From: Yoonia sp.
GTDB lineage: Bacteria; Pseudomonadota; Alphaproteobacteria; Rhodobacterales; Rhodobacteraceae
DNA length: 53,104 bases
NCBI RefSeq assembly: GCF_017854415.1
Contig: NZ_JAFMHR010000004.1
Coordinates: 1-53,104 of the forward strand
Reading direction: 5' to 3'
Shown here: in pieces, positions 11,842 to 15,935 of the stretch
Layout of the letters: the number at the start of each line of letters is the position of its first letter
How positions within the stretch are numbered: the first letter of the stretch is position 1
The notes under the pieces: model-generated
The model's input: only the letters and a program-made list of their open reading frames with translations
The model's database searches: none
What the model was told of the DNA's origin: nothing
Made by a program: the position numbers and the translations under genes

Positions 11842-12576
11842 GTGCGCAAGCCACCCCAAACATTCCAAGACGGTATCGGATCACTTGTCCCGCAATACCA
11901 AAAACGGCGCGCATTGCTAACCGGACCTGATCTGCCACCACACGACGTGGATTTCGAATTGCTCAAAGATCAGCCGTTACCAGCCCAAACCTTGCCGCGT
12001 CCCGAAGGTCTCAGCCGCGTTGCCAAGAAACGGCATATGTTGCTGGGCGAACTGGCGGGCCATTGCGAATTGGCATTGCTACATGGGCTTTTGGTGTCGC
12101 ACCTGCGCAAGCATACCTATCCTGACGCAGCACCTGCGTTGTTTATGCGTATGTGGGCCGAGCAAGAAGAATGGCTATTGAACAACCTGCCCACACGTTG
12201 GTTAATATCAGCGGTGATCACCTTTGCTGAACACGGCCAATCAGAAGCTGACCGAAACCTTGCCGCACGTTTGAACATTCTGTTTTCGCTCATGAAAATC
12301 TTCGAATCCGAACGGTGCTTTTCCGGCCGTCCCCCGCAAAAGCCTTTCCGCATCGAAGACCGCAACAAAGCGCCCCTTCCAATGGGAATGAAAGATTTCT
12401 CGGTCCTGAATGGCGATCTTGAGGCGCACTTGCTTGCCCCGATTTGGCGCGATGCGAATACGACACCAATGATCGGCCCTCTGGTGCGACATTTGCTGGA
12501 ATTGTTGAACCAGGATGACGGCACTGTGTTCCGCCGCCTTGCATTGATGCGCGAAACAGCAACAAAGGCGCGGTGA
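11842..12576 (+). CDS. Conserved hypothetical protein
   Basis: 244-aa soluble protein with no signal peptide, membrane segment or motif I can name. It starts with GTG, supported by AAGAGG 6 nt upstream. The centre is helical and Trp-rich (MRMWAEQEEWLLNNLPTRWL) and the C-terminus is rich in Leu and Arg. It lies upstream of the helicase leader on the same strand. Confidence 0.7.
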   Translation: MRKPPQTFQDGIGSLVPQYQKRRALLTGPDLPPHDVDFELLKDQPLPAQTLPRPEGLSRVAKKRHMLLGELAGHCELALLHGLLVSHLRKHTYPDAAPALFMRMWAEQEEWLLNNLPTRWLISAVITFAEHGQSEADRNLAARLNILFSLMKIFESERCFSGRPPQKPFRIEDRNKAPLPMGMKDFSVLNGDLEAHLLAPIWRDANTTPMIGPLVRHLLELLNQDDGTVFRRLALMRETATKAR

Positions 12577-12610
12577 TCCACCGCTTGGCTAGGGGGACTT
12601 CTTGACGCAG

Positions 12611-12718
12611 TGCAGCAATTAAGTTAGCTGCAATCACAGCCAAAAATGGCTGTTGACGCAGGACGCGCTGAACAAGCGTCCTTTCACCTTTGCGGACCGA
12701 TCCGCAGACATAGGACGT
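12611..12718 (+). promoter_or_regulatory. Structured leader of the DEAD-box helicase gene with a possible Shine-Dalgarno switch
   Basis: Four hairpins lie in ~100 nt: TGCAGC/GCTGCA (12611-12632), ACAGCCA/TGGCTGT (12636-12653), AGGACGC/GCGTCCT (12660-12682) and TGCGGA/TCCGCA (12691-12706). The helicase Shine-Dalgarno is AGGACGT at 12712-12718, a near copy of the 5' arm of hairpin 3. The strand GCGTCCT (12676-12682) can therefore pair fully with either AGGACGC (SD free) or AGGACGT (six Watson-Crick pairs plus one G-U, SD hidden). Helicase mRNAs often have regulatory leaders; the switch itself is inference. Confidence 0.55.
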
Positions 12719-12720
12719 AT

Positions 12721-14196
12721 ATGACTAAGTTTACTGATTTGAACCTTGACGCCAAGGTTCTCAAGGCCGTTGCTGAAACAGGCTACGACACACCTACCCC
12801 CATTCAGGCCGGCGCGATTGCCCCCGCCCTTGAAGGCCGCGATGTTTTAGGTATCGCCCAGACAGGTACTGGCAAAACCGCTGCCTTCACACTGCCAATG
12901 ATTACACTGCTGGGCCGCGGGCGGGCACGCGCACGCATGCCACGGTCATTGATCCTTGCACCAACACGCGAATTGGCTGCACAAGTTGCTGAAAACTTTG
13001 ATGCTTATGCCAAATACACCAAACTGACGAAAGCCTTGTTGATTGGCGGCACCAGCTTCAAAGATCAGGACAAACTGATCGACAAGGGTGTGGACGTGCT
13101 GATCGCGACCCCTGGCCGTTTGTTGGACCACCTTGAGCGCGGCAAATTGATTCTAACCGATGTGAAAATCATGGTCGTCGACGAAGCCGACCGGATGCTC
13201 GATATGGGTTTCATCCCCGACATCGAAGAAATTTTCAAGCGCACGCCATTCACCCGCCAAACACTGTTCTTTAGTGCGACAATGGCCCCAGAGATCGAGC
13301 GGATCACAAACACATTTCTGTCGAATCCTGCAAAAATTGAAGTGGCCCGTGCGGCAACAACGAACGTGAACATCAAGCAAGGTGTTGTGATGTTCAAAGC
13401 CTCTGCCAAACCCAAAGAACCGACTGAAAAGCGCGAATTGCTACGGAAATTGATCGACGCCGAAGGCGACGCCTGCACAAACGCGATTATCTTTTGCAAC
13501 CGCAAATCCGACGTTGATATTGTCTCTAAGTCATTGAATAAATGGGGCTATCAGGCCGCGCCAATCCATGGCGATCTGGACCAAAGCCACCGCACAAAGA
13601 CGCTGGATAAATTCCGCGACAACGAATTGCGCATCCTTGTGGCCTCTGATGTCGCGGCGCGTGGTTTGGATATTCCGGCTGTGACACACGTCTTTAACTT
13701 CGATGTGCCCAGCCACGCCGAAGACTATGTGCACCGCATTGGCCGGACCGGTCGCGCTGGACGCTCTGGCACCGCGATCATGATCTGCACGCCGCGCGAC
13801 GAGAAAAACCTCGAGGACGTGGAACGTTTGGTCAAGACGACGATTCCCCGCTTGGACAGCCCAATGGGCAAATCAGCGGCCCCTGCCCCTGCAACCCCGT
13901 CCGAAGCTGAAAAGACCGACGACAAGCCAAAGCGCACACGCAATCGCCGCAAGCCAGAGCCGAAGGTCGAAGATGTAAAGGTCGCAGAAGCCAAACCTGC
14001 TGCTGCACCCGAAGTCAAAGCAGAAGCGAAACCCCAACCTAAACCCGAGCACACACAAAAACCACGTGAAGAGCGTGCGCGCGGTGGCCGTGGACGTGGA
14101 AACGACCGCCGTGATAACGGACCAAAAGTTGTTGGTATGGGTGACGATACGCCAACGTTTATCGCATTAAGCTTTGCAGATCGGGCGAAAGACTAA
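12721..14196 (+). CDS. DEAD-box ATP-dependent RNA helicase (RhlE-like)
   Basis: 491-aa helicase that unwinds RNA duplexes, likely in ribosome assembly or RNA decay. The start is the ATG 5 nt after AGGA (MTKFTDLNLD), 25 codons inside the track ORF. The Q motif is GYDTPTPIQ, motif I AQTGTGKT (~45-52), Ia PTRELA, II VDEADRMLDMGF, III FSATM, V VASDVAARGLDIP and VI HRIGRTGRAGRSG. The last ~110 residues are a low-complexity Lys/Glu/Pro/Ala tail ending in an Arg/Gly-rich patch (GGRGRGNDRRDNG), a likely RNA-binding tail. It ends at a strong bidirectional terminator. Confidence 0.93.
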   Translation: MTKFTDLNLDAKVLKAVAETGYDTPTPIQAGAIAPALEGRDVLGIAQTGTGKTAAFTLPMITLLGRGRARARMPRSLILAPTRELAAQVAENFDAYAKYTKLTKALLIGGTSFKDQDKLIDKGVDVLIATPGRLLDHLERGKLILTDVKIMVVDEADRMLDMGFIPDIEEIFKRTPFTRQTLFFSATMAPEIERITNTFLSNPAKIEVARAATTNVNIKQGVVMFKASAKPKEPTEKRELLRKLIDAEGDACTNAIIFCNRKSDVDIVSKSLNKWGYQAAPIHGDLDQSHRTKTLDKFRDNELRILVASDVAARGLDIPAVTHVFNFDVPSHAEDYVHRIGRTGRAGRSGTAIMICTPRDEKNLEDVERLVKTTIPRLDSPMGKSAAPAPATPSEAEKTDDKPKRTRNRRKPEPKVEDVKVAEAKPAAAPEVKAEAKPQPKPEHTQKPREERARGGRGRGNDRRDNGPKVVGMGDDTPTFIALSFADRAKD

Positions 14197-14234: not shown

Positions 14235-14269
14235 AAAAAAGGTCGGGGTATTATCCCCGACCTTTTTTT
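14235..14269 (+). terminator. Bidirectional rho-independent terminator between the helicase gene and rnj
   Basis: AAAAAAGGTCGGGG, loop TATTAT, CCCCGACCTTTTTTT: an 8-bp GC-rich stem extended by A-T pairs. The A-run on the left is the T-run for the minus strand, so it serves both convergent genes. On the minus strand it starts at the rnj stop codon itself. Confidence 0.9.
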
Positions 14270-15935
14270 ATGCGCCTAACCGCGACACGATCACAGTCAC
14301 TTCGGGCTTTTTACCAATCTCGCCCTGCGCAGAACGTCGAGCGATCGTCTTAAGCTCTTTTTCCAGCTTCACATCATCGCGCAACGTCTTGGCGTTGGCG
14401 CGGTTTATGAACTGGCTCAGGTCCTGTTCGACAACTTCAACCAAGGCGGCATTGTTGCGCCCTGTCTCGGCCAGACCAGAGGTTTCAACCCACGGATCAC
14501 CCAGCGGTTCGTCATTTTCATCGATGATCAGCGTCACGATCATATGCCCGTTCAGCGCCATGCGGATACGGTCACGCACGATGCCATCCATAGCACCCAC
14601 TTGCACAGAGCCATCAAGATAGGTCCGGCCGGTCTCGATATACTCGGCAACAGTCGCGCGGTTCCCCGACAGATCAATCATCATACCATTGACCGCGACA
14701 ATGCCCGCAAGCCCGCTTTCGCCACCCAGTTTCACGTGCTCGCGCAAATGACGGTGCTCGCCGTGCATCGGGATCAGAATTTGTGGTTTCACAATCTGGT
14801 GCAGGCGCTGCAAGTCGGGACGGTTAGCATGGCCCGATACGTGGTACTTGCCGCCCGCGTCGTCGATCACGTCGACGCCCAGTTCAGACAACTGGTTCAT
14901 GATACGGATCACGCCGCGTTCATTGCCGGGAATTGTCTTGGAAGAGAACAGAAACGTATCCCCATCTTTCAACTTCAGGCCCAAATAGGACCCTTGTGCT
15001 AATTGCGCAGACGCCGCACGGCGTTCGCCTTGGCTGCCGGTGACCAACAGCATCACGTTCTCGCGCGGCATGTTCAGCGCGTCTTCGGGGGACACAACAG
15101 GCGGAAATCCGGTCAAAATACCAACTTCAGTGGCGGCTTCGACCATCCGGCGCATTGCACGACCCAATAGCACGACGGAACGGTCGGCCTTTTGGGCGGC
15201 CATAGCCAATGTCTTTAAACGCGCGATGTTCGACGCAAACGTGGTCGCGACAACCATGCCGCCCGCTTGTTTCATCATATCAGCGATTGCATCACCAATT
15301 GATGCCTCTGACCTGCCAGCATCCCGTGAAAACACGTTAGTACTGTCACAAATCAGGGCTTTGACACCATCTTTGGAGACTTCTTCCCACAGAGCTTCGT
15401 TCCACGGATCACCAACAATCGGTGTTTCGTCGATCTTGAAGTCACCAGAATGTAGCACCCGGCCTTCTGGCGTATCGATCAAAAGGCCTGCACTTTCAGG
15501 GATCGAGTGGCTGATTGGCAGATATGACACCTTGAGCGGACCACAAGTAATCACTTCGGGATAAACGCCAACAACTTTAACCACACTTGCGGGATGGCCA
15601 TGTTCGTCCAGCTTGCGCCGCGCAATATTGGCCGTGAAAGCCCGCGCATAAACAGGCGCGCCCAGACGTTCCCAATAGTGCCCAATTGCGCCCACATGGT
15701 CTTCGTGTGCGTGAGTAATAAAGATACCTTCGATCTGCGCTTTGCGCGCCTCGAGCCATGCAATATCCGGCAGGATCAGATCAACACCCGGTGTGCTGTC
15801 CATATCAGGGAACGTCACACCCAAATCGACCACAATCAGGCGTTCCTTGCCCGGTGCGCCATAGCCATAAACATAGGCGTTCATGCCAATTTCGCCGGCG
15901 CCCCCAAGAGGCAGATATATCAGGCGGTCGGTCAT
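14268..15935 (-). CDS. rnj: Ribonuclease J
   Basis: Metallo-beta-lactamase/beta-CASP nuclease (555 aa) with 5'-3' exo- and endonuclease activity in mRNA decay and rRNA maturation. The zinc motif THAHEDH is at 74-80, then HSGDFKIDETP, the beta-CASP region LVTGSQGE, and MHGEHRHLREH. Length fits the family. It is the distal gene of the minus-strand block after coaX and orf61. The stop lies in the shared terminator. Confidence 0.95.
   Translation of the reverse strand: MTDRLIYLPLGGAGEIGMNAYVYGYGAPGKERLIVVDLGVTFPDMDSTPGVDLILPDIAWLEARKAQIEGIFITHAHEDHVGAIGHYWERLGAPVYARAFTANIARRKLDEHGHPASVVKVVGVYPEVITCGPLKVSYLPISHSIPESAGLLIDTPEGRVLHSGDFKIDETPIVGDPWNEALWEEVSKDGVKALICDSTNVFSRDAGRSEASIGDAIADMMKQAGGMVVATTFASNIARLKTLAMAAQKADRSVVLLGRAMRRMVEAATEVGILTGFPPVVSPEDALNMPRENVMLLVTGSQGERRAASAQLAQGSYLGLKLKDGDTFLFSSKTIPGNERGVIRIMNQLSELGVDVIDDAGGKYHVSGHANRPDLQRLHQIVKPQILIPMHGEHRHLREHVKLGGESGLAGIVAVNGMMIDLSGNRATVAEYIETGRTYLDGSVQVGAMDGIVRDRIRMALNGHMIVTLIIDENDEPLGDPWVETSGLAETGRNNAALVEVVEQDLSQFINRANAKTLRDDVKLEKELKTIARRSAQGEIGKKPEVTVIVSRLGA

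Follow-up and report, generated by a model that had tools for sequence, protein, structure and literature searches.

In translational riboswitches and in the autogenous leaders of ribosomal-protein genes, the anti-Shine-Dalgarno and anti-anti-Shine-Dalgarno designs, one strand is common to two mutually exclusive helices, and one of these helices hides the Shine-Dalgarno (SD) sequence, whose occlusion lowers translation. The cold-responsive cspA-type leader of E. coli likewise adopts alternative folds that differ in SD access. A structured leader is also known before an alphaproteobacterial DEAD-box helicase gene, rhlE of Caulobacter crescentus, where transcriptional fusions are higher in an rhlE null strain and a translational fusion carrying the 186-nt leader rises at 10 °C, a post-transcriptional cold induction (PMC5472812). 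By analogy, these data would agree with a negative feedback that is relieved in the cold, and they do not show a refolding mechanism. Within the Rhodobacterales, the described structured motifs SAM/SAH (PMC2864571), HRC-8-4 and uORFC-8-2 (PMC8632094) lie at metK, cco/hvrB and cysS; the main text of neither paper mentions a DEAD-box helicase gene.

The window, a stretch of 53,104 nucleotides from Yoonia sp., contains a DEAD-box helicase gene whose leader resembles each of these systems in part. It shares with riboswitches and ribosomal-protein leaders the strand common to two exclusive helices, and differs from them in that no ligand-binding domain or ribosomal-protein site is recognised. It shares with the cspA-type leader the alternative folds with differing SD access, but its predicted balance hardly depends on temperature. 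Like Caulobacter rhlE, it is a long structured leader of an alphaproteobacterial DEAD-box helicase gene, although it measures about 83 nt from the inferred start instead of 186, and a two-state SD switch has not been described for rhlE (PMC5472812). Like the Rhodobacterales motifs, it is a family-restricted cis element found through comparative genomics. The conserved pairing set out below indicates that this leader is probably a real translation switch.

The region 12560–12800 matches no Rfam family, even at an E value of 5, and the leaders of relatives give only unrelated matches below threshold. The conserved ligand-binding domain or known Rfam family that would mark a metabolite riboswitch is not recognised. 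Searches of the open-licence literature, outside which a description is possible, found none of this helicase leader, and no start-site or expression data on the helicase gene in Rhodobacteraceae. The leader is a candidate for a new cis-regulatory RNA of an already known kind, apparently undescribed.

The helicase gene and its transcript

The encoded helicase is nearest to the CshA and RhlE models, yet falls under every curated cut-off. Of 248 Rhodobacteraceae genomes, taken as one per genus, 240 carry a single ortholog. The 210 distinct leaders collected from relatives were sorted into 57 of a window-like type (Y), 96 of type S, 46 of type L and 11 others; one leader per genus gives 76 S, 23 Y, 15 L and 11 others. 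The features of the locus are collected in Table 1.

Table 1. Elements of the helicase leader and its surroundings, in window coordinates
Feature	Position	Strand	Basis or remark
ORF of 244 aa preceding the helicase gene	11842–12576	+	no match in Pfam or NCBIfam
Putative promoter: −35 TTGACG (12602–12607), 17-nt spacer, −10 TAGCTG (12625–12630)	12602–12630	+	conserved TTGAC; alignment
5′ hairpin ACAGCC-AAAAAU-GGCUGU	12636–12653	+	sequence; probably the first RNA bases
Decoy strand AGGACGC	12660–12666	+	pairs with 12676–12682; both-side changes in 26-row alignment
Shared anti-SD strand GCGUCCU	12676–12682	+	partner of either decoy or SD
Hairpin C UGCGGA-CCGA-UCCGCA	12691–12706	+	sequence; between anti-SD and SD
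SD strand AGGACGU	12712–12718	+	six of seven anti-SD pairs present in 25 or more of the 26 alignment rows
DEAD-box RNA helicase gene, RhlE/CshA-like, protein start MTKFTDLN	12721–14196	+	PF00270 and PF00271
RNase J-like gene	14268–15935	−	convergent with the helicase gene

An in-frame ATG at 12646 adds 25 codons to the helicase reading frame and could be taken for the start by gene-calling programs. An N-terminal extension from this codon was rejected because the ATG is absent in the relatives inspected and an in-frame stop lies at most 84 nt before the start in 100 of 210 leaders. An RNase J-like motif is found downstream of the helicase gene in 65 of 73 relatives; the degradosome of Helicobacter is made of a helicase and RNase J (PMC5874925).

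A TTGAC sequence lies 90 to 150 nt upstream of the start codon in 197 of the 199 Y, S and L leaders (chance about 5%), at median distances of 115 to 127 nt. A stricter sigma-70 scan found no promoter. From the conserved TTGAC at 12602 we infer that transcription starts at about 12638, upstream of 12682, the end of the shared strand, and therefore that all three strands are transcribed. The initial annotation counted four hairpins before the ATG. All four are present in the DNA, and the fourth (GCAGC/GCTGC, about 12612–12631) lies within the promoter; given a start at about 12638, this hairpin is probably untranscribed and the long-range pairing obtained by folding 12577–12760 is probably absent from the real RNA. 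The short 5′ hairpin of the window has a GGCC-type counterpart at the same position in most close relatives. Two copies of the sequence TTGACGCAG are spaced by 51 bases: the first falls in the −35 region (12602–12610), and the second immediately precedes the decoy (12653–12661) and is not conserved in relatives.

Two exclusive helices and their conservation

The three strands, both pairings and the start codon are found letter for letter where they were first described. Decoy and anti-SD strands form seven Watson-Crick pairs, giving a decoy hairpin that spans 12660–12682, while SD and anti-SD strands form six Watson-Crick pairs and one G-U. Thus one strand has two alternative partners, the decoy and the SD, as in a translational switch. 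Hairpin C fits both fold states, and four of its pairs show both-sided changes.

This arrangement stands out from its background. The region 12577–12760 folds with a z score of −3.66. A three-strand score, defined as the weaker of two helices having a strand in common, reaches 14.9 in the window, a value attained by none of 2000 dinucleotide shuffles in which the SD region was kept and the highest of the 42 gene starts compared, all within the window (the runner-up has 12.5). A score of at least 6 is reached by 93% of the Y leaders and 33% of their shuffles, and by 100% of the S leaders and 57% of theirs; at a threshold of 8 the figures are 86% and 13% for Y, and 99% and 24% for S. Weak versions are common in so GC-rich a background, so the case rests mainly on the comparison among relatives. 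The Y model matches the window leader with 75 bits. The presence of the element elsewhere was considered and rejected, since the next best match in the same genome has about 15 bits and the matches outside the family, among 191 genomes of the class, are weak and never upstream of a helicase gene. By these models and this class sample, in which Caulobacter was not queried by name, no such element precedes a helicase gene outside Rhodobacteraceae.

The leader types differ in sequence. Y leaders consist of a decoy GGGRCGC, an anti-SD GCGUCCY, hairpin C and an SD GGACGY. S leaders have a decoy RCGGGC, an anti-SD GUCCGY, a short loop in place of hairpin C and an SD CGGAY; these strands are unrelated in sequence to those of Y, and the two-fold logic is common to both. 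L leaders read GGGCCGC, GCGGCC and GCCGC, followed by GAAAGGG. Their middle strand pairs either upstream or downstream, and the fold predicted for the 46 leaders leaves the SD for the most part unpaired, an architecture that, as modelled, does not readily fit the switch scheme. As judged from sequence, the three-strand arrangement is present in differing sequences upstream of the helicase gene in most Rhodobacteraceae examined.

On the helicase tree the leader types are intermingled, with 12 changes, and well-supported branches force at least six changes for Y and for L. From the start codon onward, L077 (type S) and L114 (type L) share 85% identity and their leaders do not match, a pattern that a leader swap would produce. 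L047 is among the leaders in the comparison of leader type and tree against window positions 12600–12720.

In S, an unbiased scan of all column pairs, with a null in which the same number of changes is scattered on the tree, ranks the outer decoy/anti-SD pair as the strongest covarying pair (score 76.5, E 0.00), far above all others. This pair is GC in 60 leaders, AT in 29, GT in 7 and unpaired in none, and because the SD hairpin places its outer base in a loop, its covariation supports the decoy helix only. All six decoy pairs are kept in 96 of 96 leaders. This pairing is independent of the classification, since leaders were assigned to S by their anti-SD and SD letters, whatever their decoy. 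The S SD helix is paired in 94 to 96 of the 96 leaders at its four core positions, and further out UA and GC pairs replace each other in both directions. Both helices are thus conserved with compensatory changes in S. In L219, all three strands are altered together, to GCAGGC, GCCUGC and CAGGC.

In Y, where GCGUCC is nearly invariant, an unbiased covariation scan is without power, and pairs of the named structure were counted in the 26-row alignment. The decoy helix is paired in 98.4% of cells with seven both-side changes, a number reached in 0 of 500 shuffles. The SD helix and hairpin C together are 89% paired with 11 both-side changes, all of them in hairpin C; the SD helix itself has compatible one-sided changes only, and its seventh pair is kept in 13 of 26 rows. 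Compensatory changes in Y are thus found through the decoy helix and hairpin C. Single relatives replace the decoy/anti-SD pairing outright with UGGACGC/GCGUCCA, GGAGCGC/GCGCUCC or GGGGCGU/ACGUCCC. In five Y leaders (L200, L202, L208, L218 and L254) the decoy helix is kept while the SD pairing is bulged or reduced to about four pairs. The initial annotation had held that variation without covariation in relatives would count against it; the variation mostly favours the decoy pairing, and the GCGCUCC group, which retains the SD GGACGC, has lost uninterrupted SD pairing, so that the decoy helix is better kept than the SD helix. The toggle itself is supported: it is conserved in the 57 window-like leaders and rebuilt with other sequences, and with covariation, in 96 more.

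Two exclusive hairpins could also belong to a transcription attenuator, one of them acting as terminator. No U run follows any hairpin of the + strand, the sole terminator-like match lies on the − strand at 12570–12584, and the conserved target is the SD. The hairpin with U run of an intrinsic-terminator attenuator is therefore absent, which makes attenuation highly improbable.

Order of folding, temperature and trigger

Nearest-neighbour predictions, which take no account of tertiary contacts, ions or ribosomes, close the SD in 91% of the Y leaders and 97% of the S leaders when these are folded to 24 nt into the gene. From the inferred start, the SD-closed state is the more stable one at 25 °C, with a median advantage over the decoy state of 3.7 kcal/mol in Y and 5.0 kcal/mol in S. 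The window's own leader shows an advantage of just 1.1 kcal/mol, a near-balance not common to most relatives. In nascent RNA, before the SD is made, the median probability of the decoy is 0.98 in Y and 0.95 in S. Together, synthesis order and stability gap point to a kinetic switch, ON first and OFF later.

The prevalence of the SD-closed fold would also suit a constitutive device, in which the SD hairpin sets a low, fixed rate of translation and the decoy merely prevents misfolding, with no signal involved. Such tuning has no need of a decoy kept in 96 of 96 leaders with covariation, and we regard it as unlikely.

The initial annotation proposed temperature or the helicase itself as the trigger of the toggle. 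In a temperature switch, such as a thermometer or a cspA-like leader, the fold balance would depend directly on temperature. Folding at several temperatures yields no consistent response. For the window alone the decoy gains in the cold at some lengths (0.94 at 4 °C and 0.09 at 37 °C for 12638–12820), but the trend depends on the length folded, and 12577–12760 gives the opposite. Mean SD opening is about 0.04 to 0.07 at all temperatures in 35 Y relatives and 0.05 to 0.07 from 10 to 37 °C in S; little changes between 10 and 37 °C, and cooling, if anything, slightly favours the SD-closed fold. The predicted SD access thus does not vary over the growth range as an RNA thermometer's would. A simple thermometer was rejected on these grounds, temperature as a thermodynamic trigger is not borne out, and a temperature switch of either kind is quite improbable. 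The predictions instead describe what is probably a bistable, kinetic switch rather than a melting thermometer.

A further alternative is that a protein other than the helicase (a ribosomal protein, a Csp or Hfq) or an sRNA binds a conserved hairpin and selects the fold. Conserved loops speak for it: AAUNCG in 40 of the 46 leaders of type L, AUNCG in many of type S, and CCGA(U) in hairpin C of Y. The S and L loops sit in a hairpin near the 5′ end (for example in L114 and L142), whose stem pairs covary weakly in S, and this loop is a possible protein site. The loops differ among the three types, however, and such a factor seems about as unlikely as constitutive tuning.

We favour, with a probability of roughly 0.6, a cis-acting kinetic translational switch that passes from a decoy ON state to an SD-closed OFF state, with the helicase as the most likely factor. 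The decoy and anti-SD strands would emerge first from the polymerase and form the decoy hairpin, leaving the SD free and translation ON. After the SD strand has been made, the anti-SD could exchange the decoy for the SD and so hide it in the more stable OFF fold. Output would depend on how long the RNA stays in the metastable ON fold, or on a factor that speeds refolding. DEAD-box proteins unwind short duplexes, and since refolding opens six to seven pairs, the helicase could drive the passage from decoy to SD-closed. The most likely factor is thus the gene product itself, which would speed refolding to OFF as negative feedback, so that in the cold or under helicase shortage the message would stay ON. 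We infer that translation follows the fold and, from the analogy with Caulobacter rhlE and the metastable decoy, that helicase or cold may act on it; feedback by the helicase and cold-slowed refolding are both plausible.

More tentatively, and with rather more doubt than hope of being right, these leaders may represent one class of kinetic switches throughout the family. A DEAD-box helicase would regulate its own translation by catalysing the refolding of its leader, whose ON hairpin is metastable and whose OFF hairpin is stable, and at least two unrelated sequence designs would have replaced one another at the same gene. If so, the RNA would refold through the very reaction that the helicase catalyses and would thereby report RNA-helicase activity. 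The leader would then be a direct activity sensor of a cold-related enzyme, built from some 80 bases and used across a large marine bacterial family, and its two sequence sets with one logic would offer a natural series on what makes a kinetic translation switch.
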